Of a stretch of DNA of 64,000 bases, positions 6,110-57,641 are shown in pieces. A program made the position numbers and the translations under genes. Source of the DNA: Kibdelosporangium persicum (GTDB lineage: Bacteria; Actinomycetota; Actinomycetes; Mycobacteriales; Pseudonocardiaceae); NCBI RefSeq assembly GCF_013280595.1, contig NZ_JAAATY010000005.1, positions 1 through 64,000 of the forward strand, in the 5' to 3' direction. The notes beneath the pieces are model-generated. The model was not told the origin of the DNA. It searched no databases and worked only from the letters and a program-made list of their open reading frames with translations. How positions within the stretch are numbered: position 1 is the stretch's first letter; each line of letters opens with the position of its first letter.

Positions 6110-6159
6110 CCCTCGTGAGTGGTTATCAGGGTTAGAACACTGATAACCACTCACGAGGG
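6110..6159. repeat. Palindromic repeat family, copy A
   Basis: Perfect 19-bp arms (6110-6128 and 6141-6159) enclose a 12-nt loop GGGTTAGAACAC, the reverse complement of the family loop GTGTTCTAACCC. The stem reads GTGGTTATC opposite GATAACCAC, a paired change from the commonest stem GTGTTTATC/GATAAACAC. It abuts the broken end of the metH remnant and lies 154 bp before the PAC2 gene. Confidence 0.9.
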
Positions 6160-6301
6160 GGGTGGGCCGACACGCCAGGGCGGCCCGGAACAAGATCACG
6201 ATCTGGCGTCCGTGACGGCAGAAGCAGCGGAAACAGCGCCTGGACGGCCAGGTGGGCCTGAACCGTTCCAACGCTGTAGTCAAACAGGGCGCCCGGGGTC
6301 G

Positions 6302-6307
6302 TAGGCT
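6302..6307 (+). promoter_or_regulatory. Likely -10 element, leaderless PAC2 gene
   Basis: TAGGCT ends 6 nt before the GTG start at 6314, the spacing expected if transcription begins at the start codon. No Shine-Dalgarno sequence is present, which agrees with a leaderless transcript. Confidence 0.4.
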
Positions 6308-6313
6308 TGGCAA

Positions 6314-7216
6314 GTGACCGATCACGACCCGCAGAGCACCGCCGGCACGCCAGCGCTCGTCGAGCCAGTCATAGTCTGTGCCTTCGAAGGCTGGAATGAC
6401 GCCGGGGACGCGGCGAGTACGGCGATCGAGCATCTTCAACTGACCTGGGACGCCACCCCGCTGGCGGACGTGGACCCGGACGACTACTACGACTTCCAGG
6501 TGACCCGGCCGACCGTGAAACTGGTGGACGGCGTCACCCGGCGCGTGGAGTGGCCGACGACGCGGCTGTCGGCGTGCCGCCCGCCCGGCTCGTCCAGGGA
6601 CATCGTGCTCGTGCACGGCATCGAGCCGAACATGCGCTGGCGGAAGTTCTGCGCCGAGCTGCTCGAACACATCGAGCGGCTGGGGGTGACCACCGTGGTC
6701 ACCCTCGGCTCGATGCTGGCCGACACGCCGCACACCCGCCCTGTCCCGGTGACCGGAACGGCCTACGACGCGGCCTCCGCCGCGCGCTTCGGCCTGGAAC
6801 GCTCCCGCTACCAGGGGCCGACCGGGATCGTCGGCGTGCTGCAGGACGTGTGCGTGCAAGCCGGTATCCCGGCGATCTCGCTGTGGGCCGCGGTGCCGCA
6901 CTACGTGTCCCAGCCGCCGTCGCCCAAGGCCACGCTGGCGCTGCTGCACCGCGTCGAGGAGGTTCTCGACGTCGAGGTGCCGCTGGGCGCCCTGCCGGAG
7001 CAGGCCGACGAGTGGCAGCGGACCGTGAGCGAGATGGCCGAGGAGGACGAGGACGTCAGCAACTACGTCCGGGCCCTGGAGGAACGCGGCGACGCGGCGA
7101 TCACCCTCAACGAGACCAGCGGTGACGTGATCGCCGCGGAGTTCGAGCGGTACCTGCGGCGCCGGCGCCACGGCGGTCCCGGCCCCGGACCGGGCCGGGG
7201 ACCTCGTCAGTCCTGA
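6314..7216 (+). CDS. PAC2-family protein
   Basis: A 300-residue member of the PAC2 (proteasome assembly chaperone 2-like) family, related to the protein encoded near metH and mshC in mycobacteria. The features seen are EPVIVCAFEGWNDAGDAAS near the N-terminus, the central TTVVTLGSMLADTPHTRPVPVTGTA block, and an Asp/Glu-rich helix near 235-255. The fold is phosphorylase-like; the role in bacteria is not established, though relatives have been linked to proteasome or RNA metabolism. It ends with a Gly/Pro/Arg-rich tail that is probably disordered. It converges with the aldo/keto reductase gene. Confidence 0.85.
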   Translation: MTDHDPQSTAGTPALVEPVIVCAFEGWNDAGDAASTAIEHLQLTWDATPLADVDPDDYYDFQVTRPTVKLVDGVTRRVEWPTTRLSACRPPGSSRDIVLVHGIEPNMRWRKFCAELLEHIERLGVTTVVTLGSMLADTPHTRPVPVTGTAYDAASAARFGLERSRYQGPTGIVGVLQDVCVQAGIPAISLWAAVPHYVSQPPSPKATLALLHRVEEVLDVEVPLGALPEQADEWQRTVSEMAEEDEDVSNYVRALEERGDAAITLNETSGDVIAAEFERYLRRRRHGGPGPGPGRGPRQS

Positions 7217-7261
7217 CCCAAGGCTTGTCAACGAGGGCCGATGACGCCGAGAAGCCGCGTT

Positions 7262-8281
7262 TCAGGACAACCTTCGGAGGCGCTTGTCGGCAATGGCGGG
7301 CGGGGGGTAGTAGGTGTCGCGCTGCCGGACCGTCACGCCCGGCGGGACGATCTCGTCGATCTTGTCCAGCACGTCGTCGCCGAGCCGGACGTCCACCCCG
7401 GCCAGCAGGTCCGCCAGGTGCTGCGGCCTGCTCGCGCCGATGATCACCGAGGACACCGCGGGATGCGCGAGGACGAACGCGACCGCCAGGTGCGGCAGGG
7501 ACATTCCGGCATCGGCTGCCAGCTTGGTCAGCTTCTCCACCGCCGCCAGCTTCGTCTGGTTCGCCGGGTCGGCCAGGTCGAACACGTCACCGACGATCTC
7601 GGCGCGGCCTCCGGTGGCCTGCGCCGGAGCGGCACGGCCGGACAACCACCCCGCAGCCAACGGGCTCCACGTGAGCACGCCCATGCCGTAGCGCTGTGCG
7701 GTCGGCAGCACGTCCGCTTCGACCCCTCGCATCAGGATCGAGTACGGCGGCTGCTCGGTGCGGAACCTGTGCAGGCCACGCTTTTCGGCCACCCACTGGG
7801 CTTCGACGATCTGCTCGGCCGGGAACGTCGACGTGCCGATCACCCTGACCTTGCCGTCGCGCACCAGGTCGGACAAGGCCGCCAACGTCTCCTCGATGTC
7901 CGTGGCCGGGTCCGGCCGGTGCATCTGGTAGACGTCGATGTAGTCGGTGTCCAGGCGCCGCAGGCTTTCCTCGACCGCGCGCTTGATCCACCGCGGTGAA
8001 CCGCCGCGCCGGTTGACGTCGTCGCCCATCGGGTTCCAGAACTTCGTCGCGAGCACCACGTTGTCGCGACGGCCTTTCAGCGCCTTGCCGACGATCTGCT
8101 CGGACTCGCCCTGTGAGTAGGTGTCCGCCGTGTCGATCGTGTTGATGCCCGCGTCCAGCGCGGTGTGGATCATCCGGACCGACTCGTCGTGGTCGGCGTT
8201 GGCGAACGACCCGAACGTCATGGCACCGAGCGCGAACTCGCTGACCGAGATCCCGGTGCCGCCAAGGACTCTGTACTTCAT
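7262..8281 (-). CDS. Aldo/keto reductase
   Basis: A 339-residue NAD(P)H-dependent oxidoreductase of the AKR fold, close to the YajO/Tas-like group. The catalytic tetrad can be placed as Asp53, Tyr55 (DTADTYSQG), Lys80 and His121 (YQMHRPD). The C-terminal [10 protein letters not shown] loop binds the cofactor 2'-phosphate in relatives. Substrate is unknown. It is divergent from an MmyB-type regulator gene with an 87-bp gap that contains a 15-bp palindrome, so it is probably the target of that regulator. ATG start at 8281. Confidence 0.9.
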
Positions 8282-8313
8282 GCCGTCAAGGCAACCCCGG
8301 CCGGGCAGGCGCG

Positions 8314-8328
8314 TGACAGGGTCTGTCA
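8314..8328. promoter_or_regulatory. Palindromic operator between AKR and regulator genes
   Basis: TGACAGGGTCTGTCA consists of perfect 6-bp arms around a 3-bp centre. It lies in the divergent promoter region, 33 bp before the AKR start and 41 bp before the regulator start. It is a good candidate site for the MmyB-type protein encoded beside it. Confidence 0.5.
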
Positions 8329-8356
8329 GTACCCCGCACGGCCGCCGAGAGGGCCC

Positions 8357-8362
8357 TAGGCT
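8357..8362 (+). promoter_or_regulatory. Likely -10 element, leaderless regulator gene
   Basis: TAGGCT lies 6 nt before the ATG at 8369, the same sequence and spacing as in front of the PAC2 gene. This suggests a leaderless transcript. Confidence 0.4.
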
Positions 8363-8368
8363 GGCAGG

Positions 8369-9244
8369 ATGAACACCGAGCTCCGGGAGTTCCTGCGGTC
8401 ACGGCGGGCCAAGATCACGCCCGAGGAGGCGGGACTGCCGACCCTGCCGGGCACGCGCCGGGTGCCGGGCCTGCGGCGTGAGGAGGTCGCGCAGCTCGCC
8501 GGGGTGAGCGTGGACTACTACGTCCGTCTTGAGCGCGGCAAGAGCGTGAACGTCTCCGAGTCAGTGCTCGACGCGCTCGCACGAGCGTTGCGGCTCAACG
8601 ACGTGGAGCGCGCCCATCTGTTCACTGTGGCCAGACCGACGCGCAGGGCCCGGCCGTTGCCGCCGCAGCGGGTCCGGCCAGGACTGCGGCTGGTGTTGGA
8701 GTCGCTGCCGGACGTCCCGGTGATGCTGGTCGGCCGCCGGATGGACGTGCTCGGCGTCAACAAGCTCGCTGCGGCGCTGTACAAGGACTTCGACGCCGCG
8801 CCGCCGCACGAGCGCAACGTCGTCAGGTACATGTTCCTCGACCCGGCCGCCCGGGAGCTCTACGTCGACTGGGCGGACGGCGCGCGCAGCGCCGTCGCGA
8901 GCCTGCAGTTCTACGCCGGGCAGCACCCGCACGACCCCCAGCTCGCCGCATTGGTCGGCGAGCTGTCGGTCCGGGACAAGGATTTCCGGCGCTGGTGGGC
9001 CGACCATGACGTGTTCCGGCACGGGCACGGCTCGAAGAAACTGCACCACCCGGTCGTCGGCGAGCTCACGGTGTTCTACGAGTCGCTGATCCCGCGCGAA
9101 GACCCGGACGTGATGCTGTCGATGCACACGGTCGAGCCGGGCTCGCCATCAGCGCAGAAACTGCGTCTGCTGGCGAGCTGGGCGGCGTCAGATGTCGATG
9201 CCGAGCAGGGCGTCGACAGCGTCCCGGAACTGCGCGGGAGCTGA
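8369..9244 (+). CDS. XRE-family regulator with MmyB-like ligand-binding domain
   Basis: A 291-residue DNA-binding protein. An N-terminal helix-turn-helix (about 25-80, [20 protein letters not shown]) is followed by an MmyB-type domain (about 105-270) of the kind that binds fatty-acid-like ligands in the methylenomycin regulator MmyB. Such proteins commonly control a divergent oxidoreductase, as here. Its 3' end overlaps the 3' end of mshC by 57 bp tail to tail, so the last 18 codons are read from both strands. Confidence 0.9.
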
Positions 9245-10426
9245 CGGGTCGCTGCCGCGGCCGGCGAGCGCGTCGTCGGCCCACGCGTCCACGGCGCGCA
9301 GCGCGTTCGGCGTGTCCAGGTCGTTCGACAGGTGGTCACGCAGGCGGGCGATCGTGTCCGTGGCGTCCGGCCCGGACTCCAGCAGCGCGGCGTCGCGCCA
9401 GCGGCCCAGCCGGCGCTCACTTTCGGTCAGCAGCCCGGCCGTCCACGGCCGGTCCTCGCGGTAGTGCCCGGAGAGCAGGGCGAGCCGCACGGCCATCGGG
9501 TCCACCTTGTCGGCCCGAAGCCGCGACACGAACACGAGGTTGCCACGCGACTTGGACATCTTCTCGCCGTCCAGGCCGATCATCCCGGCGTGCACGTAGT
9601 GCCGGGCGAAGGGGAACTCGCCGGTCAGCGCCTCGGCGTGGGCGGCGCTGTTCTCGTGGTGCGGGAAGATCAGGTCCGAGCCGCCGCCCTGGACGTCGAA
9701 GCCGGACCCGAGCCGGTTCAGCGCGATGACGGAACACTCGACGTGCCAGCCAGGCCGGCCTGCGCCGATCTCGCTCTCCCACGACGGCTCGTCCGGGCGC
9801 GCCATCCGCCACAACAGGGCGTCCAACGGGTGCCGCTTGCCAGGCCGATCCGGGTCGCCGCCGCGCTCGGCGAACAACTCCAGCATGGTCTGCTCGGAGT
9901 AGCCGGACTCGTAGCCGAACTGGCCGGTCGCCGCGTGGTCGAAGTAGACGTCCGGGTACTCGGAGTCCTCCACCCGGTACGCGTGCCCGGCGGCGAGCAG
10001 CTTGCCGATCGCCTCGACGATCTCCGGAATGGCCTCGACCGCCCCGATGTACGACCTCGGCGGCAGGACACGCAACGACACCATGTCCTCACGGAAGAGA
10101 GCGGTTTCCCGCATACCGAGCACGACCCAGTCGTCCTGGTCGCGCTCGGCGCGCTCCAACAGCGGGTCGTCGATGTCGGTGACGTTCTGCACGTAGTTGA
10201 CGTCGTGCCCGTTGTCCAGCCAGACCCGGTGGATCAGGTCGAACGCGAGATACGTCGCCGCATGCCCCAGGTGGGTCGCGTCGTAAGGAGTGATGCCGCA
10301 GACATACAGGCCGGCCGTCTTTCCCGGCGCTGTCGGCCGCACCTCACCGGCAGCGGAGTCGTGGAGCCGCAGTGGCCGTGGCGTCCCTGCCACGCGTGGA
10401 ACCGGTGTCGATGCCCATGTCTGCAT
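9188..10426 (-). CDS. mshC: L-cysteine:1D-myo-inositol 2-amino-2-deoxy-D-glucopyranoside ligase
   Basis: A 412-residue MshC, which adds cysteine to GlcN-Ins in mycothiol synthesis using ATP. It is a cysteinyl-tRNA synthetase homologue without the tRNA-binding tail. It has the HLGH ATP-binding motif at 52-55, KMSKS at 289-293, and zinc/cysteine-binding residues Cys43, Cys231 and His256. Its length is typical of MshC rather than CysRS. The presence of mshC shows the organism makes mycothiol, which supports an actinobacterial origin. The gene overlaps the preceding regulator gene at their 3' ends. Confidence 0.96.
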
Positions 10427-10498
10427 GTCAGTCAGGTTAATCGGCGACCATTCGGATGAGACGACCGCTCATGGGTTGGAAGGATCACAGGCACCGCG

Positions 10499-11731: not shown

Positions 11732-12918
11732 GCGTCCCACGTCACCGGCAGGTTGAACAGCCCGTAGATGCTCATCTTGTCGCGGAAGCGCACGTCACCG
11801 GCCAGTTTGAGGGTCGGCAGCCTGCTCAGCAACGCGGTGAACGCGATCCGCATCTCCACCCGCGCCAGCTGCTGGCCGAGGCACTGGTGGATGCCGTGGC
11901 CGAAGGCCAGGTGACCTTGGGCGTGCCTGGTCAGGTCGAGGTCGTCCGGGTTGGTGAACTTCGCCGGGTCACGGTTCGCGCCCGGCACCGACATGGCCAC
12001 CGCCTCACCGGCCTTGACCAGGTGCCCGTCGATCTCCACGTCCTCGAGCGCGGTCCGCACCGGTCCGAAGTGGATGATCGAGAGGTAGCGCAGCAGCTCC
12101 TCCACGGCCGTGGCGGGATCGGCCAGGAACGCTTCCCGCCGTCCCGGCTGCCGCAGGATCGTGTACGTGCCGAGCGCCAGCATGTTCGCGGTCGTCTCGT
12201 GCCCCGCGATCAGCAGCACCAGGCCGATCGTGCACAGTTCCTCGTCGGTCAGTTCGCCTTCCGCGATGAGCCCGCTCAGCAGGTCGTCGGCGGGCCGCTC
12301 CCGCTTCGCGGCGATGACGTCGCCGAGCAGCGAGTACATCGACGCCCATGCGGCCATCGCCTCGTCGGCGCCGGACTCCAGGTTGAGCAGCGTGGACGCG
12401 TCGCCCTGGAACTGGTCCCTGCGCTCGTACGGCACGCCGAGCAGTTCGCAGATCACGAGCGACGGGATCGGCAGCGTGTACGTCGGCACGAGGTCGACCG
12501 GCGGCCCGCTGGCCACGATCGCGCCGAGGTGCTCCCGCACGATTTGCTCGATCCGGGGTTCGAGCAGGTTCATCCGGCGGACGGTGAACTGGCCGGTCAG
12601 CGTCCGCCGGATCCGGCTGTGCTCGGGGTCGTCCATCCGGTTGAACATGCCCGGCGGGACCTTGAAGTCGGCAATTGACTGTGCCTGCAGCCGTTTCACC
12701 GGGATGACCGGATGGGTCAGCTCGATGCGGTTGCTGAACGCCGGACTGGCGAGCACCGCGCGCACGGCGTGGTGCGCGGTCGCCAGCCAGCCGAGATGGC
12801 CGTCGGGAAACGTCATCCGCACCATCGAGCCGGTCGCCCGCAGCTCGCCGATCTCGACCGGTGGATCAAGCGGATTCGGGCGCTGGGTCGGCAGGCCCGG
12901 AATGCTCTGAGTGGTCAT
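11728..12918 (-). CDS. Cytochrome P450
   Basis: A 396-residue soluble bacterial P450 (CYP105/107-like architecture). The oxygen-binding I-helix motif AGHET is at 238-242, the ExxR pair is within EELLR at about 273-277, and the haem-binding loop FGHGIHQCLG at 339-348 has Cys346 as the thiolate ligand. It would hydroxylate a small molecule using ferredoxin; no ferredoxin gene lies nearby. It is the first gene of an operon with the GT1 glycosyltransferase (4-bp ATGA overlap). A perfect 18-bp palindrome lies 20 bp upstream of the ATG. Confidence 0.95.
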   Translation of the reverse strand: MTTQSIPGLPTQRPNPLDPPVEIGELRATGSMVRMTFPDGHLGWLATAHHAVRAVLASPAFSNRIELTHPVIPVKRLQAQSIADFKVPPGMFNRMDDPEHSRIRRTLTGQFTVRRMNLLEPRIEQIVREHLGAIVASGPPVDLVPTYTLPIPSLVICELLGVPYERRDQFQGDASTLLNLESGADEAMAAWASMYSLLGDVIAAKRERPADDLLSGLIAEGELTDEELCTIGLVLLIAGHETTANMLALGTYTILRQPGRREAFLADPATAVEELLRYLSIIHFGPVRTALEDVEIDGHLVKAGEAVAMSVPGANRDPAKFTNPDDLDLTRHAQGHLAFGHGIHQCLGQQLARVEMRIAFTALLSRLPTLKLAGDVRFRDKMSIYGLFNLPVTWDA

Positions 12919-33804: not shown

Positions 33805-33854
33805 CCCTCGTGAGTGTTTATCCGTGTTCTAACCCTGATAACCACTCACGAGGG
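33805..33854. repeat. Palindromic repeat family, copy B
   Basis: Arms 33805-33822 and 33837-33854 pair over 18 bp with one mismatch; the loop contains GTGTTCTAACCC. Its right arm supplies the last two sense codons (CCC TCG) and the TGA stop of hemH on the minus strand, so it may also end the hemH transcript. Confidence 0.9.
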
Positions 33855-34889
33855 TTTACCAGGGCGTTTGGTGGGTTCGCAGCAGAGCGGGGCGCAGGGG
33901 GCGCCGTTGACGGTGCAGCCCGCGGCCGTGAACTCCGACAGCTTGCGGGGCGCGATGCCTTCGACGTGCTCACGCACCAGCTCGACGACGAGCTGGGCGA
34001 AGCGGGGGTCGCCGTTGGGCGTGGTGACGCGCGCGAAGGCCATGCCCAGCTCCGCCGCCTTCTCGGCGGCCTCGTTGTCCAGGTCCCAGATCACCTCGAG
34101 GTGGTCGCTGACGAACCCGATCGGGCACACCGCGACCGCCGTCACGCCCTGCTCGTGCAATGCCTCGATGTGGTCGACGATGTCGGGGTCGAGCCACGGG
34201 ATCTGCGGCGGGCCGGAGCGCGACTGCCACACCACGTCGTACTCGGCCACCCCGACCGCCTCAGCGACCAGCCTGGACGCCTCCGCGACCTGCTTGGAGT
34301 AACGGCCGCCGCCCTCGGACGGCGGGCCCGCGGCCTGGTCTGCCGAAATGGGGACGGAGTGCGCCGTGAACACGAGCCGAGCACCCTCAGGCAGAGAGGC
34401 CAGCGCCTGACGGCTGGCGTCGGCGAAGGACTCGACGAACAGCGGGTGGTCGAAGAACTGCCGCAGTTTCACCAGCTCCGGCGTCTGCGGGCCGACGGCC
34501 GCACGGGCGCGCAGAATGTCCTCATCGTACTGACGGCACGCCGAGTAACCGCCGTACGCGCTGGTCGGGAACACGAGGGCGCGTCGCACGCCGTCCGCGG
34601 CCATCTTGCCGACGGTGTCCTCCACCATCGGGTGCCAGTTGCGGTTGCCGAAGTACACCGGCAGCTGTACGCCCTGCGCGGCCAGCTCGGCCTCGACCGC
34701 GGCGATCGCCTCGCGGTTGAGCCTGTTGATCGGCGAGACCCCGCCGAAGTGCTGGTAGTGCTGCTCGACCTCGTCGAGCCGCTCGGGCGGCACGCCTCGG
34801 CCCCGCGTCACGTTCTCCAGGAATGGCCGGACGTCGGCCGGGCCCTCTGGCCCGCCGAACGACAGCCACAGCAGCGCGTCGAAACTCAC
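33846..34889 (-). CDS. hemH: Ferrochelatase (coproporphyrin ferrochelatase type)
   Basis: A 347-residue enzyme that inserts iron into a porphyrin. In actinobacteria the substrate is coproporphyrin III and the product is converted to haem by a later decarboxylase, so CpfC is the modern name. Residues include [11 protein letters not shown] with the metal-handling His, the [16 protein letters not shown] loop, and a C-terminal cysteine cluster [13 protein letters not shown] that binds a [2Fe-2S] cluster in actinobacterial enzymes. GTG at 34889 is the first family-like start. The stop codon lies within palindromic repeat B. The gene order inhA...hemH matches mycobacteria, with an antiporter gene inserted between. 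Confidence 0.95.
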
Positions 34890-37304: not shown

Positions 37305-38060
<756 letters not shown>

Positions 38061-38095
38061 CTACCACCTGGTCCGAAGCATCCGGTCGGGACTTG

Positions 38096-38115
38096 TGGTG
38101 GGGCTAACCCCACCA
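38096..38115. promoter_or_regulatory. 20-bp perfect palindrome in the fabG/FtsX divergent region
   Basis: TGGTGGGGCTAACCCCACCA has 8-bp arms around CTAA, 95 bp upstream of the permease ATG at 38211. It is a candidate regulator site for the permease gene and perhaps fabG. The protein that binds it is unknown. Confidence 0.5.
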
Positions 38116-38210
38116 TGAATCAGCGGTTCTGCACCATGGGTCGGGCACCGTCCGCAGCAATAGCGTCATGCCACAAACAATCGGCCGAGGGATTGGAACG
38201 GACCGCGATC

Positions 38211-40670
38211 ATGCTGCGCCTGACGCTACGAACACTGCGCTACCGCAAGGGGGGTTTCGTCGCCACGTTCATCGCGCTGTTCTTCGGTGCGGCGATCGTG
38301 ATGGCCTGCGGTGGCCTGATGGAGACCGGGATCCGCACCGCGATCCCGCCGCAGCGGCTGGCCGGCGCGGACGCCGTGATCACCGCCGACCGGTCGGTCA
38401 GGATGGCCACCGACGCGGAGCCGGACGAGGACGGTTACATCGAGTACCAGTACTCCACGCTCACGGAGGACGTGCCGCTCGACGCAGGCGTCGCCGCCAA
38501 GGCCGCGGCTGTGCCCGGGGTGGCGCGAGTGGTCCAGGACATCGCCTTCCCCGTGGCCCTCGCGGGCACGACGACAACCGGCCACAACTGGGCTTCGGCC
38601 ACCCTGGCCGGTCTGAACCAAGCCGCGCCGCAGCCGGGCCAGGTGGTCGTGCCGCGGAGTTCCGGCAAGCAGGCCGGCGAGCGGGTGGACATCTCGGTAC
38701 GCGGCCAGGTCGCGCAGTACACCGTGGCCGGGACGTCCACGCAGTCGGTCGTGTACTTCGCGGACTCGGACGCGCAGCGCCTCGGCCGGCTGCTGGCGCT
38801 CGGCGTCGTCGCGCAGCCTGGCACGGATTCGTCGGCCTTGGCCAAGCGCCTGGCGGATTCGCTCGGGACGTCGGCGACGGTGTTGTCCGGTGACGACCGT
38901 GGCGTCGCCGAGCACCCGGAGGCCGGACAGCAGAGCGAAATCCTGATCACGTTGGCCGGGGTGTTCGGCGGCTTCGCCGTGATGGTCTCGATGATGGTCG
39001 TGGCCAGCACGTTCGGGGTGTCCCTGCAGCAGCGCAAGCGGGAGATCGCCCTGCTGCGGGCGATCGGCACGACGCCTGGCCAGATCCGCCGGATGATCTT
39101 CACCGAGTCGCTGGTGATCGCGGTGCTGGCCACGGCGGCGGCGTGGGTGCCGGGCTCACTGCTCGGCGGGTTCCTGTTCGAGCGGCTCGCCGAGTACGGC
39201 GTGGCGAGCCCGGTCGTGCAGTTCCACCAGGGCTGGATCCCGTCGATCGTCGGCGTGGGCACGGCACTGCTCGCCGGGGTGATCGCCGCCCTCGCCGGCG
39301 CCCGCCGTGCCTCCCGGACCCGCCCGACCGAGGCGCTCGCCGAGGCCGCCGTGCAGCGCAAGTGGCTCACCCCCACGCGGATGATCTTCGGGATCATCTC
39401 CTGCGCGGGCGGTCTGGCGCTGGGGATCATCTCGGTGACCGTGATGTCCGGCCCGATCGCCGCGTCCACCGCGGGACCCGCCGTGCTGTGCTGGGCAATG
39501 GCGTTCACGCTCTTCGCGCCCGGCGCCACCAAGGCCGTGATGGCGTTGCTGCGCGTGCCGATCCGGGCGTTCACCAAGGTCCCGGGTTCGTTGGCGGCCA
39601 ACAACACCAAGGTGCGTGCGGTGAAGCTCGCGTCCGTCGTGGCGCCGGTGATGCTGGCCTCCGGGTTCGCGTTCGCCCAGATCTACACGCAGACGACATC
39701 CGCCGAGTCGGCCCAGCGGGCGTACACCGAGAGCCTGCGGGCGGACGCGGTGCTGATCTCCGGCACCGGCGGCTTCTCCCCCGACGTGGTCGACACCGTC
39801 CGGTCGGTGCCCGGCATCACGGCCGCCTCGGAATGGGTCACCAGCGCGGGTTTCGTCGAGAGCCCGTACGACAGCGAGATCGGTGACGAGGGCCTGACGC
39901 TGCAGGGGATCACCGCGTCCGGTGCCTCGCTGACCGCGGTCCCGGTCGCGTCCGGTTCCCTGACGGACCTGTCCGGCGACACCGTGGCCCTGCCTGTCAA
40001 CCACGCGTCGGCGATGGGCGTGACGATCGGCGACAAGATCACGATGCGCTTCGGCGACGGCCAGACCAGCCCGGTTCGCATCGTCGCCCTGCTCGAACCC
40101 AACGACGTGTACGACAGCGCCTTGCTGCCCGCGCGGCTGCTGGCCAAGCACACCTCGGAGGGCGTCGCGAGCCAGATCATGGTCTCCGGCGACACGTCCC
40201 AGCTGGCGGCCCGCTTCCCCACCGCCCAGCTCGCCGACCGCTCGGCGCTGACCGAGGCCTACGCGGACGGCCTGGAGACCCAGGCGATGATCAACTATCT
40301 GATCGCCGGGATGATCATCCTCTACACGGCGATCTCGGTGATCAACACGCTGGTGGTGGAGACCGCCGACCGCCGCAGGGAGTTCGGCCTGCTGCAGCTG
40401 TCCGGCGCGCACCGCGGCCAGGTGCTGCGGATGATGGGCGTGGAAGGCGCGGCCATCACCCTGGCCGGGCTGATCCTCGGCACCATCGTGTCGCTGGGCA
40501 CCCTGGTCCCGTTCAGCCTGGCGGCACTGGACACCGTGGTGCCGTACGGTCCAATTTGGATCTACCTGGGTGTGTCGGCCGCCGCGGCCCTGCTGACCAT
40601 GGCGGCGACGATGATCCCGACCGTGATCGCCCTGCGCACCCGCCCGGCCGACACGGTCTCCGCACCCTAG
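38211..40670 (+). CDS. FtsX/MacB-type ABC transporter permease
   Basis: An 819-residue membrane protein with the doubled FtsX layout: membrane span 1 (about 18-38), a large external domain, three spans with the QQRKREIALLRAIGTTPGQIRRM coupling loop (about 270-370), a central span pair, a second external domain (about 520-690), and three last spans with ADRRREFGLLQLSGAHRGQVLRM. Such proteins export lipids, peptides or lipoproteins by mechanotransmission with an ATPase partner. No ATPase gene lies beside it, which is unusual. ATG at 38211 is the likely start, but the ribosome-binding site is weak. Confidence 0.88.
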   Translation: MLRLTLRTLRYRKGGFVATFIALFFGAAIVMACGGLMETGIRTAIPPQRLAGADAVITADRSVRMATDAEPDEDGYIEYQYSTLTEDVPLDAGVAAKAAAVPGVARVVQDIAFPVALAGTTTTGHNWASATLAGLNQAAPQPGQVVVPRSSGKQAGERVDISVRGQVAQYTVAGTSTQSVVYFADSDAQRLGRLLALGVVAQPGTDSSALAKRLADSLGTSATVLSGDDRGVAEHPEAGQQSEILITLAGVFGGFAVMVSMMVVASTFGVSLQQRKREIALLRAIGTTPGQIRRMIFTESLVIAVLATAAAWVPGSLLGGFLFERLAEYGVASPVVQFHQGWIPSIVGVGTALLAGVIAALAGARRASRTRPTEALAEAAVQRKWLTPTRMIFGIISCAGGLALGIISVTVMSGPIAASTAGPAVLCWAMAFTLFAPGATKAVMALLRVPIRAFTKVPGSLAANNTKVRAVKLASVVAPVMLASGFAFAQIYTQTTSAESAQRAYTESLRADAVLISGTGGFSPDVVDTVRSVPGITAASEWVTSAGFVESPYDSEIGDEGLTLQGITASGASLTAVPVASGSLTDLSGDTVALPVNHASAMGVTIGDKITMRFGDGQTSPVRIVALLEPNDVYDSALLPARLLAKHTSEGVASQIMVSGDTSQLAARFPTAQLADRSALTEAYADGLETQAMINYLIAGMIILYTAISVINTLVVETADRRREFGLLQLSGAHRGQVLRMMGVEGAAITLAGLILGTIVSLGTLVPFSLAALDTVVPYGPIWIYLGVSAAAALLTMAATMIPTVIALRTRPADTVSAP

Positions 40671-40680: not shown

Positions 40681-40732
40681 CCCCTCGTGAGTGTTTATCG
40701 GTGTTCTAACCCTGATAAACACTCACGAGGGG
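40681..40732. repeat. Palindromic repeat family, copy C
   Basis: Perfect 19-bp arms (40681-40699 and 40714-40732) around a 14-nt loop containing GTGTTCTAACCC. It lies 10 bp after the FtsX permease stop and 72 bp before the response-regulator gene on the same strand, the place expected for a terminator. Confidence 0.92.
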
Positions 40733-43856: not shown

Positions 43857-44132
43857 ATGACCATCGAATCGATCCTCGGTGCGATCGTGATCGGTCTGAT
43901 CATCGGAGCGCTGGCCCGGTTGATCATGCCCGGCAAGCAGAACATCCCCATCTGGCTGACCATTGTGGTCGGTATCATCGCCGCCTTCCTCGGCAGTCTG
44001 GTGGCGAGGTGGGTCGGTGTGCAGGACACCCCAGGGATCGACTGGATCGAACTACTGTTCCAGCTCGGCGCCGCGATCCTGCTGGTGGGCATCGTCTCCG
44101 GAGCGATGGGTTCACGAAACGTCCATCGATAA
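43857..44132 (+). CDS. GlsB/YeaQ/YmgE-family small membrane protein
   Basis: A 91-residue protein with three hydrophobic spans (about 5-22, 32-52 and 66-84) and the family pattern GLIIGALARLIMPGKQ near the N-terminus. These proteins (also called transglycosylase-associated) are tied to envelope stress; biochemical role is unclear. The ATG at 43857 has AAGGAG at a good distance. It ends before palindromic repeat D. Confidence 0.9.
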   Translation: MTIESILGAIVIGLIIGALARLIMPGKQNIPIWLTIVVGIIAAFLGSLVARWVGVQDTPGIDWIELLFQLGAAILLVGIVSGAMGSRNVHR

Positions 44133-44148: not shown

Positions 44149-44196
44149 CCTCGTGAGTGTTTGTCAGGGTTAGAACACTGACAAACACTCACGAGG
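44149..44196. repeat. Palindromic repeat family, copy D
   Basis: Perfect 18-bp arms (44149-44166 and 44179-44196) and a 12-nt loop in the opposite orientation (GGGTTAGAACAC). The stem reads GTGTTTGTC/GACAAACAC, a paired change from the usual TATC/GATA. It lies between two convergent genes, 17 bp after the GlsB-like stop and 6 bp from the next stop. Confidence 0.92.
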
Positions 44197-44201: not shown

Positions 44202-44798
44202 TCAGGTGTTTTGCTCGTACGCCACCGCCAGCCAGTAGCAGACCTCGTCGTCCACGTCCTCGACGTTCACCAACGGGATCCGGTGCGTCATGGCGTCGTC
44301 GCGCAGTACCTTCGCGGACTGCAGACGCGCGGCGAACCGTTCGTGGCCGCCCGACAGGTCCACGATCCGCAGACCCAGGTCCACCCGGGTCTTCGTGGTC
44401 GGTTTGACCATCGCGAACTTGCGGCGCCTGGTCCGCAGGGTCACGTACGTCTTGCGTGCCTGCACTTCGACAAGGCCCTGGTGGGCGATGCCCACCCCGG
44501 CCTCGATCACCTCGTTGAACACCGGGCGCAGGTGTTCCCGGTCGGCGAACTGGTCGTCGACCAGTTCCTCGGCCGTCTTGAGCAGGAACTCCGGGTAGCC
44601 GAACCGCTCCATGATCAGCAGCTGCTGGGCGTAGCCGTTGATGTTGCGGGTCTTGAGCCACTGTTGCAGCTCGTCGCGCGACGTGATGCCGGTTTCCCTG
44701 ATCCTGACGTTCCAGTCGTCAACGCCATGACCGGTCTGACGCTTGAGCAACTGGGCAGACCACTCGTGCATCTGCCGCCAGTCCTTGGCGTCGACCAT
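44202..44798 (-). CDS. DUF4287/DUF5655-type protein
   Basis: A 198-residue cytosolic protein. The first 75 residues (WRQMHEWSAQLLKRQTGHGVDDWNVRI) match the DUF4287 helical pattern, and the rest (GLVEVQARKTYVTLRTRRRKFAMVKPTTKTRVDLGLRI) matches the DUF5655-like sheet domain. Function is not known. The ATG at 44798 has GGAGG 4 nt upstream. It sits 26 bp downstream of the VWA gene on the same strand and converges with the GlsB-like gene across repeat D. Confidence 0.78.
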   Translation of the reverse strand: MVDAKDWRQMHEWSAQLLKRQTGHGVDDWNVRIRETGITSRDELQQWLKTRNINGYAQQLLIMERFGYPEFLLKTAEELVDDQFADREHLRPVFNEVIEAGVGIAHQGLVEVQARKTYVTLRTRRRKFAMVKPTTKTRVDLGLRIVDLSGGHERFAARLQSAKVLRDDAMTHRIPLVNVEDVDDEVCYWLAVAYEQNT

Positions 44799-47904: not shown

Positions 47905-47954
47905 CCCTCGTGAGTGTTTATCGGTGTTCTAACCCTGATAAACGCTCACGAGGG
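47905..47954. repeat. Palindromic repeat family, copy E
   Basis: Arms 47905-47922 and 47937-47954 pair over 18 bp, with one position that would be a G-U pair in RNA. The loop contains GTGTTCTAACCC. It lies 57 bp past the RipA-like stop and 86 bp upstream of the MoxR start, on the same transcript direction. Confidence 0.92.
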
Positions 47955-48010: not shown

Positions 48011-49333
48011 TCAGAGCAGGCGCGTCACGTATGGGACCAGACCGCCGTAACGCACGGGCGTGATCCGCACCCGCGAACCCGAGTACGGCGCCTCGACCAT
48101 CTGTCCGTTGCCGATGTACAACGCGACATGGTGGATCCGGCCGCTGGTGGACCAGAACAACATGTCGCCCGGCGCCATCTGCGACAGCGGCAGTTGCCTG
48201 CCCGCCTTGGCCTGGTAGCCGCTGTAGTGCGGCAGCTCGATGCCCACACCGGCGAAGGCGTAGATCATCAGGCCGGAGCAGTCGAAGCCGATTTTCGCGT
48301 AGTCGCCGAACGAATCCGCGACACCGCCGTCACGGATGCCGCGTGTCGGGCCGTTCGCGTTGCCGCCGCCCCACGCGTAGGGCACGCCTAGTTGGGAAAT
48401 GGCTCGCGCGATCACGGTCGCGACCGCGCCGCCGGTGACCGGCGGACGGCCGGGCGCCGGGCGGCTGGGTTTTGCTCCAGGACGGTGTTTCTGCGCCGCT
48501 GCCGCCGCGGCGGCGGCCTTGGCGCGTTCCTCGTCCTCGCGCTGCTTCGCCGCTTGCCACTCGCGATAGCGCTGCAACTGCGATTCGAGGCCGCCGACTT
48601 TCGCCTGTGCCTCAGCCAGTTCCTGCTCGGTCCGGGCGCGGAACGATTCGAGCTGGACGGCTTCGGCCGCCTGGGAACGGCGTGCCTGCTCCGCTACGGC
48701 GGTGGCCTGGTCGGCGACGCGTTTGGCGCCTTCCGCCTCGGCCTGCTTCTCGTTGGCCAGGTCCAGCGCGGCGCGGGCGCGTGAGTCCTTATTGGCCTGA
48801 TCGACCCGGGCGCGCTGCATGCGGTCGAGTGCGTCGAGTTGTCTACTGCTCACCGCGTTCAGCAAGGCGGCACGGTCCAGCAGATCCCGAGGGCTCTTGG
48901 CGCCGAAGAACGCCGTCATGGAACCGACTGTGCTGCCCTGGCGGAAGCTCGCCGCGGCGAACTCGTCGACGTCCTCGTGCACCTGCTCGATCGCGGTGCT
49001 CGCGGCGTCGGCCTCCTGCTTGGCGGCGGTCGCGTCGGCGCGGGCTTTCGCCGCGATGTCACGGGCGTTCTCCAGGTCGACGAGCGCCTTGTTGGCGTCC
49101 TCCATCTTCAGTTCGACCGCCGCCTGAAGATCGACCAGTTTGGACTCCGCCTCGGCGAGCCTGTTGGTCAGCTCGCCGACCTTGCCCGCCTTGGCGTCCC
49201 GGTCCGCCTTGCTGTCCTGGATCTCCTGGTCGCTGGGCTTGGGCGGTGGCGGGGGAACGGCCATGGCCGAGGGGGCGGCGGTGAACGCCAGCAGTGCGGC
49301 CAGGATCTGCACGACGGTTCGACGGACCCGCAC
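48011..49333 (-). CDS. NlpC/P60 peptidoglycan endopeptidase, RipA-like
   Basis: A 440-residue secreted hydrolase that cuts peptide bonds in peptidoglycan. A Sec signal (1-25) precedes a long coiled coil rich in Ala, Glu and Lys (about 35-285), then a Pro-rich linker and the NlpC/P60 domain with catalytic Cys in FDCSGLMIYA and His in HHVALYIG. The coiled coil is the inhibitory or partner-binding arm seen in RipA. GTG at 49333 follows AGGAGG closely. A direct repeat of the MtrA-box type lies upstream, so cell-wall-linked control by MtrA is likely. Confidence 0.93.
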   Translation of the reverse strand: MRVRRTVVQILAALLAFTAAPSAMAVPPPPPKPSDQEIQDSKADRDAKAGKVGELTNRLAEAESKLVDLQAAVELKMEDANKALVDLENARDIAAKARADATAAKQEADAASTAIEQVHEDVDEFAAASFRQGSTVGSMTAFFGAKSPRDLLDRAALLNAVSSRQLDALDRMQRARVDQANKDSRARAALDLANEKQAEAEGAKRVADQATAVAEQARRSQAAEAVQLESFRARTEQELAEAQAKVGGLESQLQRYREWQAAKQREDEERAKAAAAAAAAQKHRPGAKPSRPAPGRPPVTGGAVATVIARAISQLGVPYAWGGGNANGPTRGIRDGGVADSFGDYAKIGFDCSGLMIYAFAGVGIELPHYSGYQAKAGRQLPLSQMAPGDMLFWSTSGRIHHVALYIGNGQMVEAPYSGSRVRITPVRYGGLVPYVTRLL

Positions 49334-51478: not shown

Positions 51479-51479
51479 G

Positions 51480-52133
51480 CTATGTCGAGTCCGGGTGCAG
51501 GGCGTCGAGGATCAGGGCCAGGCCGAATTCGAACTCGTCGGCGTAGTCGTAGCCCGGTTGGCTGGCGTGCTCGGTCATCAGCTCGGTGAGGTGGGGGTAC
51601 GCGTCGGCCGGCAGGTCACGCAGGATGCCGTCGGCCACCTCGTCGAGTTCGGCACGGCTGGCGAACGGCAGGCTCAGCTCCTGGATGACGAACCCGTACA
51701 CGTAGCTGTCGATCAGCGAGAAGGCGTGCGCGGCCATCGCGACGGAGAAGCCGCCCGCTCGCAGAACGCCTAGGACGGCGTCGTGGTGGCGCAAGGTCGC
51801 GGGGCCAGGCCGGCTGCGGGAGTCCATCAGACCGACGGCCCAGCGGTGACGCCGTAGCACCGAGCGCGACGACGCGGCACGGTCGCGCATCGCCTGCTTC
51901 CAGCCCGAATCCGCCGTCGGCAGGTCGATCTCCCCGAACACCGCGTCGATCATCCCGTCGAGCAGGTCCTCCCGGCCGGCCACGTGGTTGTACAGCGACA
52001 TCGCCTCGACGCCCAGCTGGGCGGCGACCGCGCGCATCGTGACCCCTGCTTCGCCCTTCTCGTCGGCGAGCGCCATCGCGGCGCCGACCACCCGCTCCCG
52101 GCTGAGCGGCACCCGCTTCGCTTTCGCGCTCAT
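51480..52133 (-). CDS. TetR-family regulator
   Basis: A 217-residue regulator. The N-terminal LSRERVVGAAMALADEKGEAGVTMRAVAAQLGVEAMSLYNHV is typical of the TetR class with a TetR_C_1-like C-terminal domain. ATG at 52133 or GTG at 52136 can start it. It is divergent from an NAD(P)-binding protein gene with two matching palindromes between, so it probably represses that gene and itself. It is not AcnR, since acn lies beyond another gene. Confidence 0.88.
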   Translation of the reverse strand: MSAKAKRVPLSRERVVGAAMALADEKGEAGVTMRAVAAQLGVEAMSLYNHVAGREDLLDGMIDAVFGEIDLPTADSGWKQAMRDRAASSRSVLRRHRWAVGLMDSRSRPGPATLRHHDAVLGVLRAGGFSVAMAAHAFSLIDSYVYGFVIQELSLPFASRAELDEVADGILRDLPADAYPHLTELMTEHASQPGYDYADEFEFGLALILDALHPDST

Positions 52134-52156
52134 CACCCCGTCCTCCCGATTGACGG

Positions 52157-52194
52157 ACTTACGTTGTAAGTCTACCGTGACTTACAACGTAAGT
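52157..52194. promoter_or_regulatory. Paired TetR operators
   Basis: ACTTACGTTGTAAGT (52157-52171) and ACTTACAACGTAAGT (52180-52194) are each ACTTAC-N3-GTAAGT palindromes, and each is the exact reverse complement of the other. They sit in the 84-bp gap between the two divergent genes. Confidence 0.65.
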
Positions 52195-52217
52195 TAGCCA
52201 CGGACGGGAGATGACCC

Positions 52218-52898
52218 ATGCGAAAGGTCTGCATCGTCGGCGCCTCGGGAAAACTCGGGCAGTACATGGTTCAGCACGCGCTGGACCGCGGTTACGAAGT
52301 CGTCGGCGTGTGCCGGGAACGCAGCGTCCCCAAGCTCGCCGCGTTCGCCGACCGCATCACGATCGTTCCCGGGCACACGAACGACCGAGAGGTGATCCGC
52401 GAGGCGGTCGCCGGATGCGACGGCGTACTGACGGTGTTAGCGCCGTGGGGAGTGCAGCAGTACTCGTCGGGCACGGCACAGGCCGTACTCGACTACGCCG
52501 ACCCCGACGCGCGCCTGGTCTTCTCGTGCGGCTGGCACATCAGCCGCGACGGCCAGGACCAGTACTCCTGGTGGTTCAAGGCGGGCGTCCGAGTCACCAC
52601 CTGGCTGGCCCGGCTCGTCCGCGCCGTCGAAGTCGACGATCAGGTCGAGGCGTGCCGCCGGATCTTCGCCAGCGATCGGCGGTGGACGGTCGTCCGCGGC
52701 AGCGACCTGGAGGAGGGCGAAAGCCAGGGCCTGCCGGTGTGGAGCCGGCACGTCGGTGACCCGATCCTGGCGAGCAACCGGACGCGGCGCGTGGACTTCG
52801 CCCTGTTCATGGTCGAGGCACTGACCGACGACACGCTCATCCACGAGGCGCCGGCGATCGTCGGGCGCCTCTCCCCCAGCCCCCTGGCCCACGCCTAG
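52218..52898 (+). CDS. NAD(P)-binding NmrA-like/atypical SDR protein
   Basis: A 226-residue Rossmann protein. CIVGASGKLGQYMV at residues 5-18 is the cofactor loop of atypical SDRs (GxxGxxG). GCDGVLTVLAPWGVQQ follows near residue 70, and the C-terminal half has no classical YxxxK. It could be a flavin or quinone reductase, or a redox-state sensor like NmrA. It is controlled from the divergent TetR region. Its TAG stop (52896-52898) is part of the CTAG that flanks the MITE-like element. Confidence 0.85.
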   Translation: MRKVCIVGASGKLGQYMVQHALDRGYEVVGVCRERSVPKLAAFADRITIVPGHTNDREVIREAVAGCDGVLTVLAPWGVQQYSSGTAQAVLDYADPDARLVFSCGWHISRDGQDQYSWWFKAGVRVTTWLARLVRAVEVDDQVEACRRIFASDRRWTVVRGSDLEEGESQGLPVWSRHVGDPILASNRTRRVDFALFMVEALTDDTLIHEAPAIVGRLSPSPLAHA

Positions 52899-53085
52899 GT
52901 CGTGTATCAAAGCCCCGTTCGCGATAGCCGGGCCGGATGCGGCCCCTGGCGCCACTGCGGAAACGCCCAAAGACAACCAGTATTCGCGGCGTTCCCGCAG
53001 CGACGCCAGGAACCACCCCACCGAGCCGACTCCGGCCTCCGGCCGGGGCAGACTCTCATCGAACGGGGACATCGATACACGGCCT
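52895..53085. mobile_element. MITE-like element, copy 2 with CTAG duplication
   Basis: The element body is 52899-53081, flanked on both sides by CTAG (52895-52898 and 53082-53085). Its ends are imperfect inverted repeats, GTCGTGTATCAAAGCCCC and GCCGTGTATCGATGTCCCC read inward. The interior matches copy 1 (1-159) in reverse complement, including CCCAAAGACAACCAGTATTC at 52965-52984; an extra G/C-rich piece near 53030-53050 makes it longer. No transposase is encoded. The remaining gap to acn (53086-53322) shows no gene and should hold the acn promoter. Confidence 0.82.
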
Positions 53086-53322
53086 AGTTCCACCTCGTGA
53101 TAGAACGCCGGAGTCGATCTTCACTCCCCGCCGGGCACGCCACCCGACCGTGATGAACCATGTCACTCCACCCCGCCTTGTCGCCGAATACAGGACAAGC
53201 GTACTGTTAACGGCGAGGGTGGGGCCCGGGGTCTGCGAGTCCAGCGGGGATGCGCGAGACTCGGCCTGACCCGAACTGACTTTTGCTGCCACCGCACACC
53301 GGCGCGCGAGATGGAGTTGGAC

Positions 53323-56178
<2,856 letters not shown>

Positions 56179-56191
56179 CAGCTGTGCTGTG

Positions 56192-56227
56192 AACACCGCC
56201 GGGGCCTTTCGCGGCCCCGGCGGTGTT
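56192..56227. terminator. Terminator downstream of acn
   Basis: Perfect 15-bp arms (56192-56206 and 56213-56227) with a TTTCGC loop, followed on the plus strand by CTTTGTG. It lies between convergent genes and can serve both. Confidence 0.9.
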
Positions 56228-56235
56228 CTTTGTGT

Positions 56236-56868
56236 TCAGGCGCCGGTGTAGCAGCTGACTTCCATCCCGTCCTCCACCGGGAACTCCACGCTCACGTAAC
56301 CGTTCGCGGGGTCACGGACGTAGCCGAGGTAGTCGCTCATCGTGGCGAACGAGACGTCGTCCGCGACGACCAGCGCACCGGGTTCGAGCTTGGGCTCCAA
56401 CGACTGCAGCACGGGCAGGCACAGGTCCTTCCAGCCGTCCAGCAGGACCAGCCCGATCGGCCCCCGGATGTCCGCGAAAGACTCACGGGCGTCGCCTGGC
56501 AGGACGGTGACCTGGCCCGCCAGCCCTGCTTCGTTGAGATTCGCTTGCGCCGCTTCACGTTTCGCGGCGTTCATCTCGCTGCCGTAGACGTGTCCCTTGC
56601 CGTTGTCGGCGACCGCGGCAGCGAGGTGGATCGTGGATATCCCGAACGACGTCCCGAATTCCACCACGGTCTCCGGCCGGGCCGACCGGACCAGCGAGTA
56701 GAGCAGCTTGCCGCCGTCGGCCGAGATCGGCATGTAGACCTCCGCCAGCGCGTCGGCATGCGCCTGGGGATCGGTGGGGTACGACTGCGGCCAGGCATCC
56801 TCCGCTGCGGCGGAGAACAACCGGTCGAGCACAGCACGCACCTGGGCCTTGGCCAGAGAGTTCGTCAT
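56236..56868 (-). CDS. O-methyltransferase-like class I SAM methyltransferase
   Basis: A 210-residue protein of the CmcI/catechol O-methyltransferase-like group. VVEFGTSFGISTIHLAAA (about 67-84) is the SAM-binding loop, IGLVLLDGWKDLCLPVL carries the metal-binding Asp, and GALVVADDVSFATMSDYL the second acidic pair. The acceptor is unknown. It is divergent from a TetR gene with a 20-bp palindrome 10-30 bp upstream of its start, so it is most likely the target of that repressor. Confidence 0.88.
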   Translation of the reverse strand: MTNSLAKAQVRAVLDRLFSAAAEDAWPQSYPTDPQAHADALAEVYMPISADGGKLLYSLVRSARPETVVEFGTSFGISTIHLAAAVADNGKGHVYGSEMNAAKREAAQANLNEAGLAGQVTVLPGDARESFADIRGPIGLVLLDGWKDLCLPVLQSLEPKLEPGALVVADDVSFATMSDYLGYVRDPANGYVSVEFPVEDGMEVSCYTGA

Positions 56869-56878
56869 GAAATCAGCT

Positions 56879-56898
56879 TAGACGCAACGTTGCGTCTA
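56879..56898. promoter_or_regulatory. TetR operator
   Basis: TAGACGCAACGTTGCGTCTA is a perfect 20-bp palindrome between the divergent methyltransferase (56868) and TetR (56951) genes. Confidence 0.65.
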
Positions 56899-56950
56899 GT
56901 CTAGGTTGACTGGAACCGGACTTGTCCTTGAGCGGCACTAGTCTGACGGC

Positions 56951-57532
56951 GTGACGAAGACGCGGCATCACGGCAACCGGCACGGCCGGAGCGAAGAGGC
57001 CCGCCAAGCCGTCCTGGACGCCGCGGACGACCTGTTGGTGGAGCGCGGCTTCGCGGGCGTGACGATCGAGGGCGTCGCCGCGCGGGCGGGCGTGGCCAAG
57101 CAGACGATCTACCGCTGGTGGCCGTCCAAAGTCGACATCCTGCTGGACGCCTTCGTCGGCGACATGAACGAGGAACTGACGCCGCCCGACCTCGGCTCGC
57201 TGGCCGACGACCTCACCACGTACCTGCCCATGCTCGCCGCTTTCCTGACCGAAACCGACCAGGGCGCGGTCTTCCGTGCCCTCGCGGGCCAGGCGCAGCA
57301 CGACCCGGCGGTGGCCGTGCGCTTTCGCGACGAATGCGTGGTCCCGTTGCGGGCCCGGGACAGGCTGCTGCTCGAACGCGCCGTCGAGCGTGGTGAACTT
57401 GACGGCGACCTGGACGTCGAGGTGGCGATCGACCGGCTCCTGGGGCCGTTGTACTACCGGGTGCTGGTCACCGGCGAGCCGATCACGAGAACGTTCACGG
57501 ACGAACTCGTGCGGGACTTCCTCGGCACGTAG
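56951..57532 (+). CDS. TetR-family regulator
   Basis: A 193-residue regulator. The helix-turn-helix VTIEGVAARAGVAKQTIYRWWPSK is followed by a TetR_C_11-like ligand domain (LRARDRLLLERAVERGELDGDLD). It is very similar in layout to the regulator at 14163-14777. GTG at 56951. The palindrome before it also covers the methyltransferase promoter. Ligand unknown. Confidence 0.9.
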   Translation: MTKTRHHGNRHGRSEEARQAVLDAADDLLVERGFAGVTIEGVAARAGVAKQTIYRWWPSKVDILLDAFVGDMNEELTPPDLGSLADDLTTYLPMLAAFLTETDQGAVFRALAGQAQHDPAVAVRFRDECVVPLRARDRLLLERAVERGELDGDLDVEVAIDRLLGPLYYRVLVTGEPITRTFTDELVRDFLGT

Positions 57533-57595
57533 GCGGAAGATCACCCGTTCGTGCCCCCTGGGCGTGCGGCTACCTGACACCGCCTCCACTTCCCC

Positions 57596-57641
57596 CTCGT
57601 GAGTGTTTATCCGTGTTCTAACCCTGATAAACACTCACGAG
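57596..57641. repeat. Palindromic repeat family, copy F
   Basis: Perfect 16-bp arms (57596-57611 and 57626-57641) and a 14-nt loop with GTGTTCTAACCC. It lies 63 bp after the TetR stop and 141 bp before the next start. Reading the repeat itself as coding gives MFIRVLTLINTHE, a false N-terminus for the next gene. Confidence 0.92.

Follow-up and report, generated by a model that had tools for sequence, protein, structure and literature searches.

Repetitive extragenic palindromic (REP) sequences are entered by insertion sequences (ISs) of the IS3, IS110, IS4, IS256, and IS5 families; ISRm22 occupies the axis of palindromy and is accompanied by a 6-bp repeat, and for ISPsy8 a REP hairpin has been predicted, the axis of which holds the IS (Tobes and Pareja 2006, PMC1525189). 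IS1272 picks stem-loops of unrelated sequence and removes them without a target duplication, and duplication of the loop with retention of both half-stems appears in the same work merely as a possible "pathway c" (Wan 2017, PMC5678879). Here, we describe a family of 46-bp palindromes that occurs six times in the first 64,000 nucleotides of contig NZ_JAAATY010000005.1 of Kibdelosporangium persicum (this whole stretch is called the window below) and in 362 copies with both exact ends in the genome (G000; 10.35 Mb, 89 contigs). These palindromes are probably dispersed bidirectional mRNA 3'-end hairpins (terminators or 3' stabilizers), the center of which is used as a landing site by an IS1380-family transposon. 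Like the REP targets, they are dispersed intergenic palindromes entered at one fixed point, whereas here the stems entered by relatives within one IS group are unrelated from species to species, and it is the loop that is duplicated (cf. PMC1525189). With IS1272, the transposon appears to share the choice of stem-loops of unrelated sequence, whereas here both half-stems stay in place and the loop is duplicated, as can be read from the insertions themselves (cf. PMC5678879). IS1380 is not mentioned in the available text of PMC1525189. In the open-licence PMC literature, we found no report of IS1380 insertion at REP axes and, among the titles, no earlier description of these palindromes.

In form, the palindromes also resemble REPs with GTAG or CGTC ends, the subject of a paper reportedly by Di Nocera (2013). 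Those REPs are short, many-copy palindromes mostly located behind genes, and in two genomes most of those between convergent genes are no more than 20 bp away from either 3' end (PMC3733652). The present palindromes differ in that they are 46 bp long, have no GTAG/CGTC end, and are not accompanied by a tyrosine transposase gene in the two copy-rich genomes; the available main text of PMC3733652 contains no mention of "actinobacter-". In Streptomyces clavuligerus, Term-seq identified 353 structured 3' ends without and 182 with a U-rich tract (PMC8269248). The I-shaped, U-lacking hairpins of that species and the present ones are alike in being stable GC hairpins without a U-tract, the former located at transcript 3' ends and the latter known from sequence; here, however, a single family fills hundreds of places and is homogeneous within a species (cf. 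PMC8269248).

An earlier note on the window had claimed a six-copy palindrome family with varying stems and a fixed 12-nt loop, GTGTTCTAACCC. All six copies were found, each of 46 bp, at sites that the note had located correctly to within 0 to 3 bases. They are as follows (the strand is the one that reads GTTCTAAC; genes were called by a home-made codon-usage caller).

6112..6157, minus strand: palindrome copy with a GTGGTTATC/GATAACCAC stem, in the gap between divergent called genes 5142-5810(-) and 6314-7216(+); RNA fold of -31.7 kcal/mol
33807..33852, plus strand: palindrome copy that gives the TGA stop to called gene 33846-34889(-); uncompensated mismatch at pair 11:36
40684..40729, plus strand: palindrome copy 13 nt 3' of the stop of gene 37308-40670(+); not in the orthologous gap of genome G001
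44150..44195, minus strand: palindrome copy in the convergent gap between genes 43857-44132(+) and 44202-44798(-)
47907..47952, plus strand: palindrome copy 58 nt past the stop of gene 48011-49333(-); one G-U type pair
57596..57641, plus strand: palindrome copy 63 nt past the stop of gene 56951-57532(+)

Counting both strands and allowing up to one mismatch, GTGTTCTAACCC occurs six times in the window, compared with a mean of 0.07 in dinucleotide-preserving shuffles, and it is bracketed by CTCGTGAG and CTCACGAG in all six copies. When eight strands, representing all six elements, were folded as RNA, the energies were -20.5 to -31.7 kcal/mol (z of -6.2 to -8.8), and an Rfam scan of the window returned no family at the gathering score. 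The reversed loop and the paired stem changes that the note had reported for the copies at 6110 and 44149 (in its numbering) were borne out, as was its one copy with a G-U type change, namely, that at 47907. Five of the six copies do lie at gene 3' ends as it had stated, the copy at 6112 between divergent called genes being the exception. The copy at 33807 has a mismatch that it had not mentioned, an uncompensated T opposite C at pair 11:36. The fixed 12-nt loop had to be given up: the stretch is mostly stem, its outer positions vary genome-wide, and the invariant part is GTTCTAAC (62 of 62 copies in the sample described next). An invariant loop of 12 nt is ruled out by the variation at positions 19 and 28 and by the pairing of the arms.

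The position relative to genes was analyzed in a 964-kb sample of the window's genome, which consists of 104 kb of the window's contig, 800 kb of contig C1, and three 20-kb pieces. This sample contains 62 palindrome copies, none of them within a called gene. Among gaps of at least 30 bp, the 85 convergent ones hold 27 copies, the 242 tandem ones 24, and the 148 divergent ones 11, an enrichment in convergent gaps with a p of 4e-6 versus divergent and 7e-6 versus tandem gaps. Divergent gaps are longer on average than convergent ones (218 bp versus 130 bp), yet they carry fewer palindromes. The distance between palindrome and stop codon is at most 33 nt in 68 of 78 cases; in 16 of the 78 it is -7, i.e., the CTCGTGA of the palindrome provides the TGA. 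Judged by these distances and by the fold energies of the six window copies, a stable hairpin stands right behind the stop codon, as in an intrinsic terminator. The loop is oriented antisense to the gene in 14 cases and sense in 10 (p of 0.54), and this lack of orientation bias rules out a loop that is read in one transcription direction.

The 62 copies were collected by a search allowing up to four mismatches in the outer 20 positions and up to three in the center. Their outer arms and center are near-constant, and positions 2-6, 8, 18, and 20-27 are invariant, the unpaired center included. Pair 11:36 is Watson-Crick in 56 of the 62 copies, versus 41.5 expected if the two sides were independent, with nine copies changed on both sides. 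In 83 other copies, most of them from Kibdelosporangium philippinense (G007), Watson-Crick pairs were observed versus expected 63 versus 34.3 times at 15:32, 62 versus 30.9 times at 16:31, and 78 versus 53.2 times at 18:29; the copies counted are related and hence not independent, and the statistics ignore this kinship. Because most of the 83 came from an exact-pattern scan in which the center and outer arms were fixed, the conservation of these parts in them proves nothing. The loop that is invariant in the window's genome is variable in G165 and in an unrelated palindrome family of genome G324 (see below). Invariant positions that extend into the unpaired center, together with an orientation independent of gene direction, would suit a DNA-level protein site, with the CTCGTGAG arms and the GTTCTAAC center read as double-stranded DNA, e.g., in nucleoid or chromosome organization. 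We consider such a site highly improbable: binding does not need the paired inner-stem changes between species, the center varies in G165 and G002, and no reason is given for the position at stop codons.

For comparison among genomes, we used the pattern GTGAGTGNTTA-N18-TAANCACTCAC, in which the outer arms are fixed and the inner stem is free. Matches exist in 24 of 297 Pseudonocardiaceae genomes, belonging to 8 of 46 genera. There are 243 matching places in the window's genome and 352 in K. philippinense, followed by 19 in G001, 13 in G002, 6 in G003, and 1 in G004, with none in G005 or G006. The inner stem is species specific (AGTCCGG/CCGGACT in G001, AGGACGG/CCGTCCT in G084, and AGGCGGG/CCCGCCT in G167), and the center GTTCTAAC is common without being universal, other centers being present in G165 and in most of the listed G002 copies. 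Among the genomes named in the matches listed are those of Amycolatopsis species, and one contig is from Rhodococcus rhodnii. The palindrome on the latter (L164) has exact outer arms and an exact center; Rhodococcus is a genus outside Pseudonocardiaceae, and transfer is possible.

The earlier note had allowed that a genome-wide search might find only the six copies, and the 362 exact-ended ones show a family beyond them. Its amplified REP-like or terminator-like element at gene 3' ends is backed by copy number, position, stem covariation, and hairpin interchange at orthologous sites (see below), whereas the REP-associated tyrosine transposase that it suggested looking for is not supported as a mobilizer: PF01797 (REP-type tyrosine transposase) has no match in either copy-rich genome, G000 or G007. 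PF01797 is present in four of eight Kibdelosporangium genomes, and those four have 0, 0, 1, and 6 palindrome copies. In size, number, and location (46 bp, 362 copies, and none of the 62 sampled ones within a called gene), the palindromes fall within the range of REPs (21 to 65 bp, more than 100 copies, intergenic). A GTAG tetranucleotide end is absent from the position table of the 62 own and 83 other copies, in which the flanks are CCC/GGG, and so is a CGTC end, the palindrome ends being CTCGTGAG/CTCACGAG. The missing end tag and the missing transposase in the copy-rich genomes rule out membership in the REP/RAYT (REP-associated tyrosine transposase) group. No target duplication was seen around the palindromes; orthologous gaps without a palindrome hold diverged or other sequence, and no clean empty site was obtained. 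Close palindrome pairs acting as transposon ends were also rejected, given that just 5 of 52 neighbor distances in C1:1-800000 are below 3 kb. The closest pair there is 1,060 bp apart. Pairs of the unrelated palindrome of G324 (see below) were observed with starts only 131 and 118 bp apart (G324:C1:60122-60301 and 2806285-2806451).

Three places could be matched to K. philippinense with a gap of less than 700 bp (33807, 44150, and C1:565976), and all three hold a differently paired palindrome there. At the 33807 locus, orthologous copies with other stems exist in G007 and G003, and none exists in G001, G002, G004, G005, or G006. At the 44150 locus, the stem is re-paired in G007, and the slot between the same convergent genes is occupied by other hairpins in G001, G002, G004, and G006, with none at a stem score of 9 in G003. 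The palindromes of K. philippinense are absent from G004 at 10 of 10 compared places. Over all genome pairs, 17 of 31 unmerged rows (gap of at most 300 bp, no palindrome) have a hairpin with a stem score of at least 9, versus 0.1 expected from mononucleotide shuffles; when merged to distinct gaps, 12 of 24 palindrome-free orthologous gaps hold a strong hairpin. Among these 12, one in G002 is evidently a longer family member, one in G006 has CCCCTCGTG in common with the palindrome foot, and the remaining ten look unrelated to the palindrome. At 5 of the 10 loci, at least one relative has a hairpin of this kind. Other hairpins are likewise found in 24 of 57 convergent gaps without a palindrome versus 2 of 26 with one (p of 0.0018), and in 21 of 242 versus 0 of 23 tandem gaps; this excess is weakened because masking the palindrome leaves less sequence to search. 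At shared loci, concerted change and independent re-insertion are indistinguishable.

Many similar copies within a species combined with different inner stems between species, patchy presence (24 of 297 family genomes), and absence at the orthologous sites of relatives, where 5 of 10 loci have no other hairpin in any compared relative, are features that a functionless miniature inverted-repeat transposable element (MITE) or REPIN-like element, spread by a transposase and tolerated just behind genes, would also have. Such an element is nevertheless decidedly unlikely, because the REP-type tyrosine transposase is absent from both copy-rich genomes, no target duplication is seen, at 5 of 10 loci a relative has another hairpin instead, and orthologous copies persist with re-paired stems. 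Furthermore, the longer divergent gaps (218 versus 130 bp) hold 11 palindromes in 148, versus 27 in 85 convergent gaps.

Interchange with other hairpins is the main ground for a role at mRNA 3' ends, although it does not separate termination from 3' protection. Judged from these comparisons, a role in termination or stabilization is most likely. Transcription from either side would yield a long stem with a small loop right behind the stop codon. The palindromes may then act as U-less ("I-shaped") terminators, or they may set and protect 3' ends after Rho termination; these are the likeliest modes because no U-tract follows the hairpin. Function would hold the stem largely paired, and the inner bases would drift in each species. 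Several observations speak against 3'-end hairpins of this kind. (i) The flank composition of the 62 copies shows no U-tract behind the hairpin and GGG in its place, and the mycobacterial polymerase is said, in the title of Czyz 2014, to need a U-tract. (ii) Eleven of the 62 copies lie between divergent genes, as called by the home-made caller. (iii) In the window's genome, most copies lack pairing at 17:30 and 19:28 (Watson-Crick in 20 and 28 of 62 copies). (iv) In 12 of the 24 palindrome-free gaps there is no hairpin at a score of 9, and at 5 of 10 loci there is none in any compared relative, so that a hairpin is not required everywhere.

Two half-palindromes in C1 revealed a repeated element located outside the window, an IS of about 1.65 kb. 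It encodes a 460-aa IS1380-family transposase (NF033539, E of 2.5e-83, 280 bits versus a cutoff of 180; PF13701, E of 3e-27) and has the terminal inverted repeats CCCTGATCCACCG (left) and CGGTGGATCTGGG (right). Nine copies of the transposase gene exist, and the assembly is interrupted within or next to every one, leaving no copy with both flanks visible. At all readable ends, eight left and eight right (16 of 16), a half-palindrome adjoins the IS at the identical point, beside TTCTAA or TTAGAA; the ninth left end has two bases of flank only. Because the flanks outside the palindrome differ, these are separate insertions. TTCTAA and TTAGAA are found five and three times at the left ends and again five and three times at the right ends, the pattern expected from a target duplication, with no contig carrying both flanks. 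Target duplications of the IS1380 family are 4 to 5 bp long. With 62 copies of 46 bp in 964 kb, palindromes account for about 0.3% of the sample. The earlier note had considered a loop-reading protein: the center does have a user, which proves to be of another kind, the center being the insertion point of an IS1380-family transposon. The note's overall interpretation of the family is partly supported. Derivation of the palindrome from the IS ends appears unlikely: the left end of the IS and the palindrome share the seven bases CCCTGAT, but the IS ends of relatives differ and do not resemble their palindromes. A second multi-copy sequence was observed, separated by a scaffold gap from the right end of an IS1380 copy (about 11641-11810 of L025; C1:91641-91810) and present again at the contig ends of C59, C22, and C79; by eye, it is putatively the 3' end of an IS481/IS3-like transposase.

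Within this genome, an IS that recognizes the short sequence TTCTAA only, with the hairpin irrelevant, would be found at the same sites. In the 964 kb, 62 of 72 TTCTAA occurrences lie within palindromes and 10 outside, and each of the three occurrences of GTTCTAAC that is not in a whole palindrome belongs to a half occupied by the IS; because both sequences are almost confined to palindromes, a six-base rule would also place nearly all insertions in them. Relatives of the IS lie in loops of quite different sequence. A transposase search of 390 family genomes (E of 1e-120 or better) found it in 13, the window's genome included; at most four candidates were scored per genome, and more copies may exist. 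In K. philippinense, 18 loci were inspected out of 27 transposase matches, and three sites whose ends were not found (L261, L267, and L120) are excluded from the site counts. The related ISs are located in the loops of long palindromes with unrelated stems in G328 (24-bp stem), G327, G151, G324 (four sites), and G367, and weaker loop insertions are present in G332, G307, and G026. The loop is what has been duplicated as the target, in most cases over 5 bp; L264, where the two flanks differ, is the exception. The four insertions in G324 are in copies of one stem, a dispersed family that numbers 230 and has loops that vary; the loops entered differ, three having been duplicated as TTTGG, TTATG, and AAAAA. 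Such loops, and the entry of the unrelated stems of G328, G327, G151, and G367 at the same point, make recognition of TTCTAA alone rather unlikely. The G327 stem is a dispersed family as well (39 copies). Ten palindrome rows were inspected in G324, two of them representing the same place: nine are outside called genes (four convergent) and one is inside. At G328, G327, and three of the G324 sites, the IS lies between convergent genes, with its edges 31 to 74 nt from both stop codons.

To measure hairpins at the insertion sites, Watson-Crick pairs were counted between the 18 positions to the left and the 18 to the right of the duplication, and the counts were compared with those at 3,900 random positions. 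Of 18 same-group sites, 13 are in hairpins with a count attained by no more than 1% of the random positions, and 9 in hairpins with one attained by no more than 0.1%. By a stricter measure (stem score of at least 9 at the target), 9 of 32 resolved sites in both clades (see below) qualify, versus 7 of 2,340 random positions. It is possible, if somewhat doubtful, that each IS1380 transposase recognizes the stem sequence of its own species as double-stranded DNA and not as a hairpin. The stems entered are dispersed where counted (230 copies in G324 and 39 in G327), and 0 of the 16 ends in the window's genome are in another hairpin, though such hairpins are frequent (24 of 57 palindrome-free convergent gaps), as recognition of stem sequence would predict. 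It would not predict that the stems entered across species lack an evident common sequence and that the loop position remains constant among transposases about 50% identical to that of the window's genome, nor that one insertion, L257, lies in an imperfect hairpin.

It may be the hairpin structure that is recognized. We propose tentatively that the Pseudonocardiaceae IS1380 clade may target by DNA secondary structure, i.e., extruded hairpins (cruciforms) at gene 3' ends, of any sequence, with its ends joined at the loop borders and the loop duplicated, and that several species may each have their own amplified 3'-end hairpin, in tens to hundreds of copies, as safe landing sites. Palindromic DNA would be the landing site at which the IS1380-family transposase joins the ends across the loop; the loop would become the target duplication, and the IS would settle between genes without breaking any. 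Apart from TTCTAA, which by itself predicts the same sites in the window's genome, two observations weigh against targeting of hairpins. Five of the 18 same-group sites have no hairpin (L258, L259, L269, L272, and L266). In addition, a second clade with CTTAG/CTAAG duplications (G007 group 2, G006, and G183) has 0 of 15 sites in hairpins. A tree of 14 transposases separates this clade from the rest with 100/99 support, and L258, which has no hairpin, groups with the transposases of the hairpin clade.

Another IS1380 group in K. philippinense (L113, L119, L122, and L126) was observed at the edge, not in the loop, of a different palindrome, GCCGTGAAGG..CCTTCACGGC. A loose pattern for this palindrome had no match in the 964 kb of the window's genome and two matches in 180 kb of G007. 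For the IS1380 copies beside it, automatic end-finding resolved four of six, unreliably, and 0 of the 4 were in a hairpin.

Two further features of the window deserve mention. At 52893-53088 there is an interspersed repeat of about 194 bp with inverted ends GGTCGTGTATC..GATACACGGCC and CTAG-like flanking bases, for which the listed matches number more than 30 within the window's genome, most of them of 89 to 91% identity, and extend to further genomes of the genus; it looks like a MITE. At 52157-52196, two inverted 15-bp repeats (ACTTACGTTGTAAGT/ACTTACAACGTAAGT) lie between the divergent genes 51480-52133(-) and 52218-52898(+) and are operator-like, making this a candidate operator site.

If insertion is indeed guided by hairpins, this IS1380 clade would offer a natural example of transposition that follows structure and duplicates the loop, just a possible pathway in Wan 2017, and the different loops on one stem in G324 and the unrelated stems in neighboring genomes would be ready-made substrates. 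Hairpin guidance would also account for the multiplication of the IS in gene-dense actinomycete genomes without gene breakage. Comparison can now address how hundreds of 46-bp hairpins stay alike within a species yet re-pair between species, and whether, in high-GC actinomycetes, the 3' ends of genes often come from repeat families as opposed to arising one by one.

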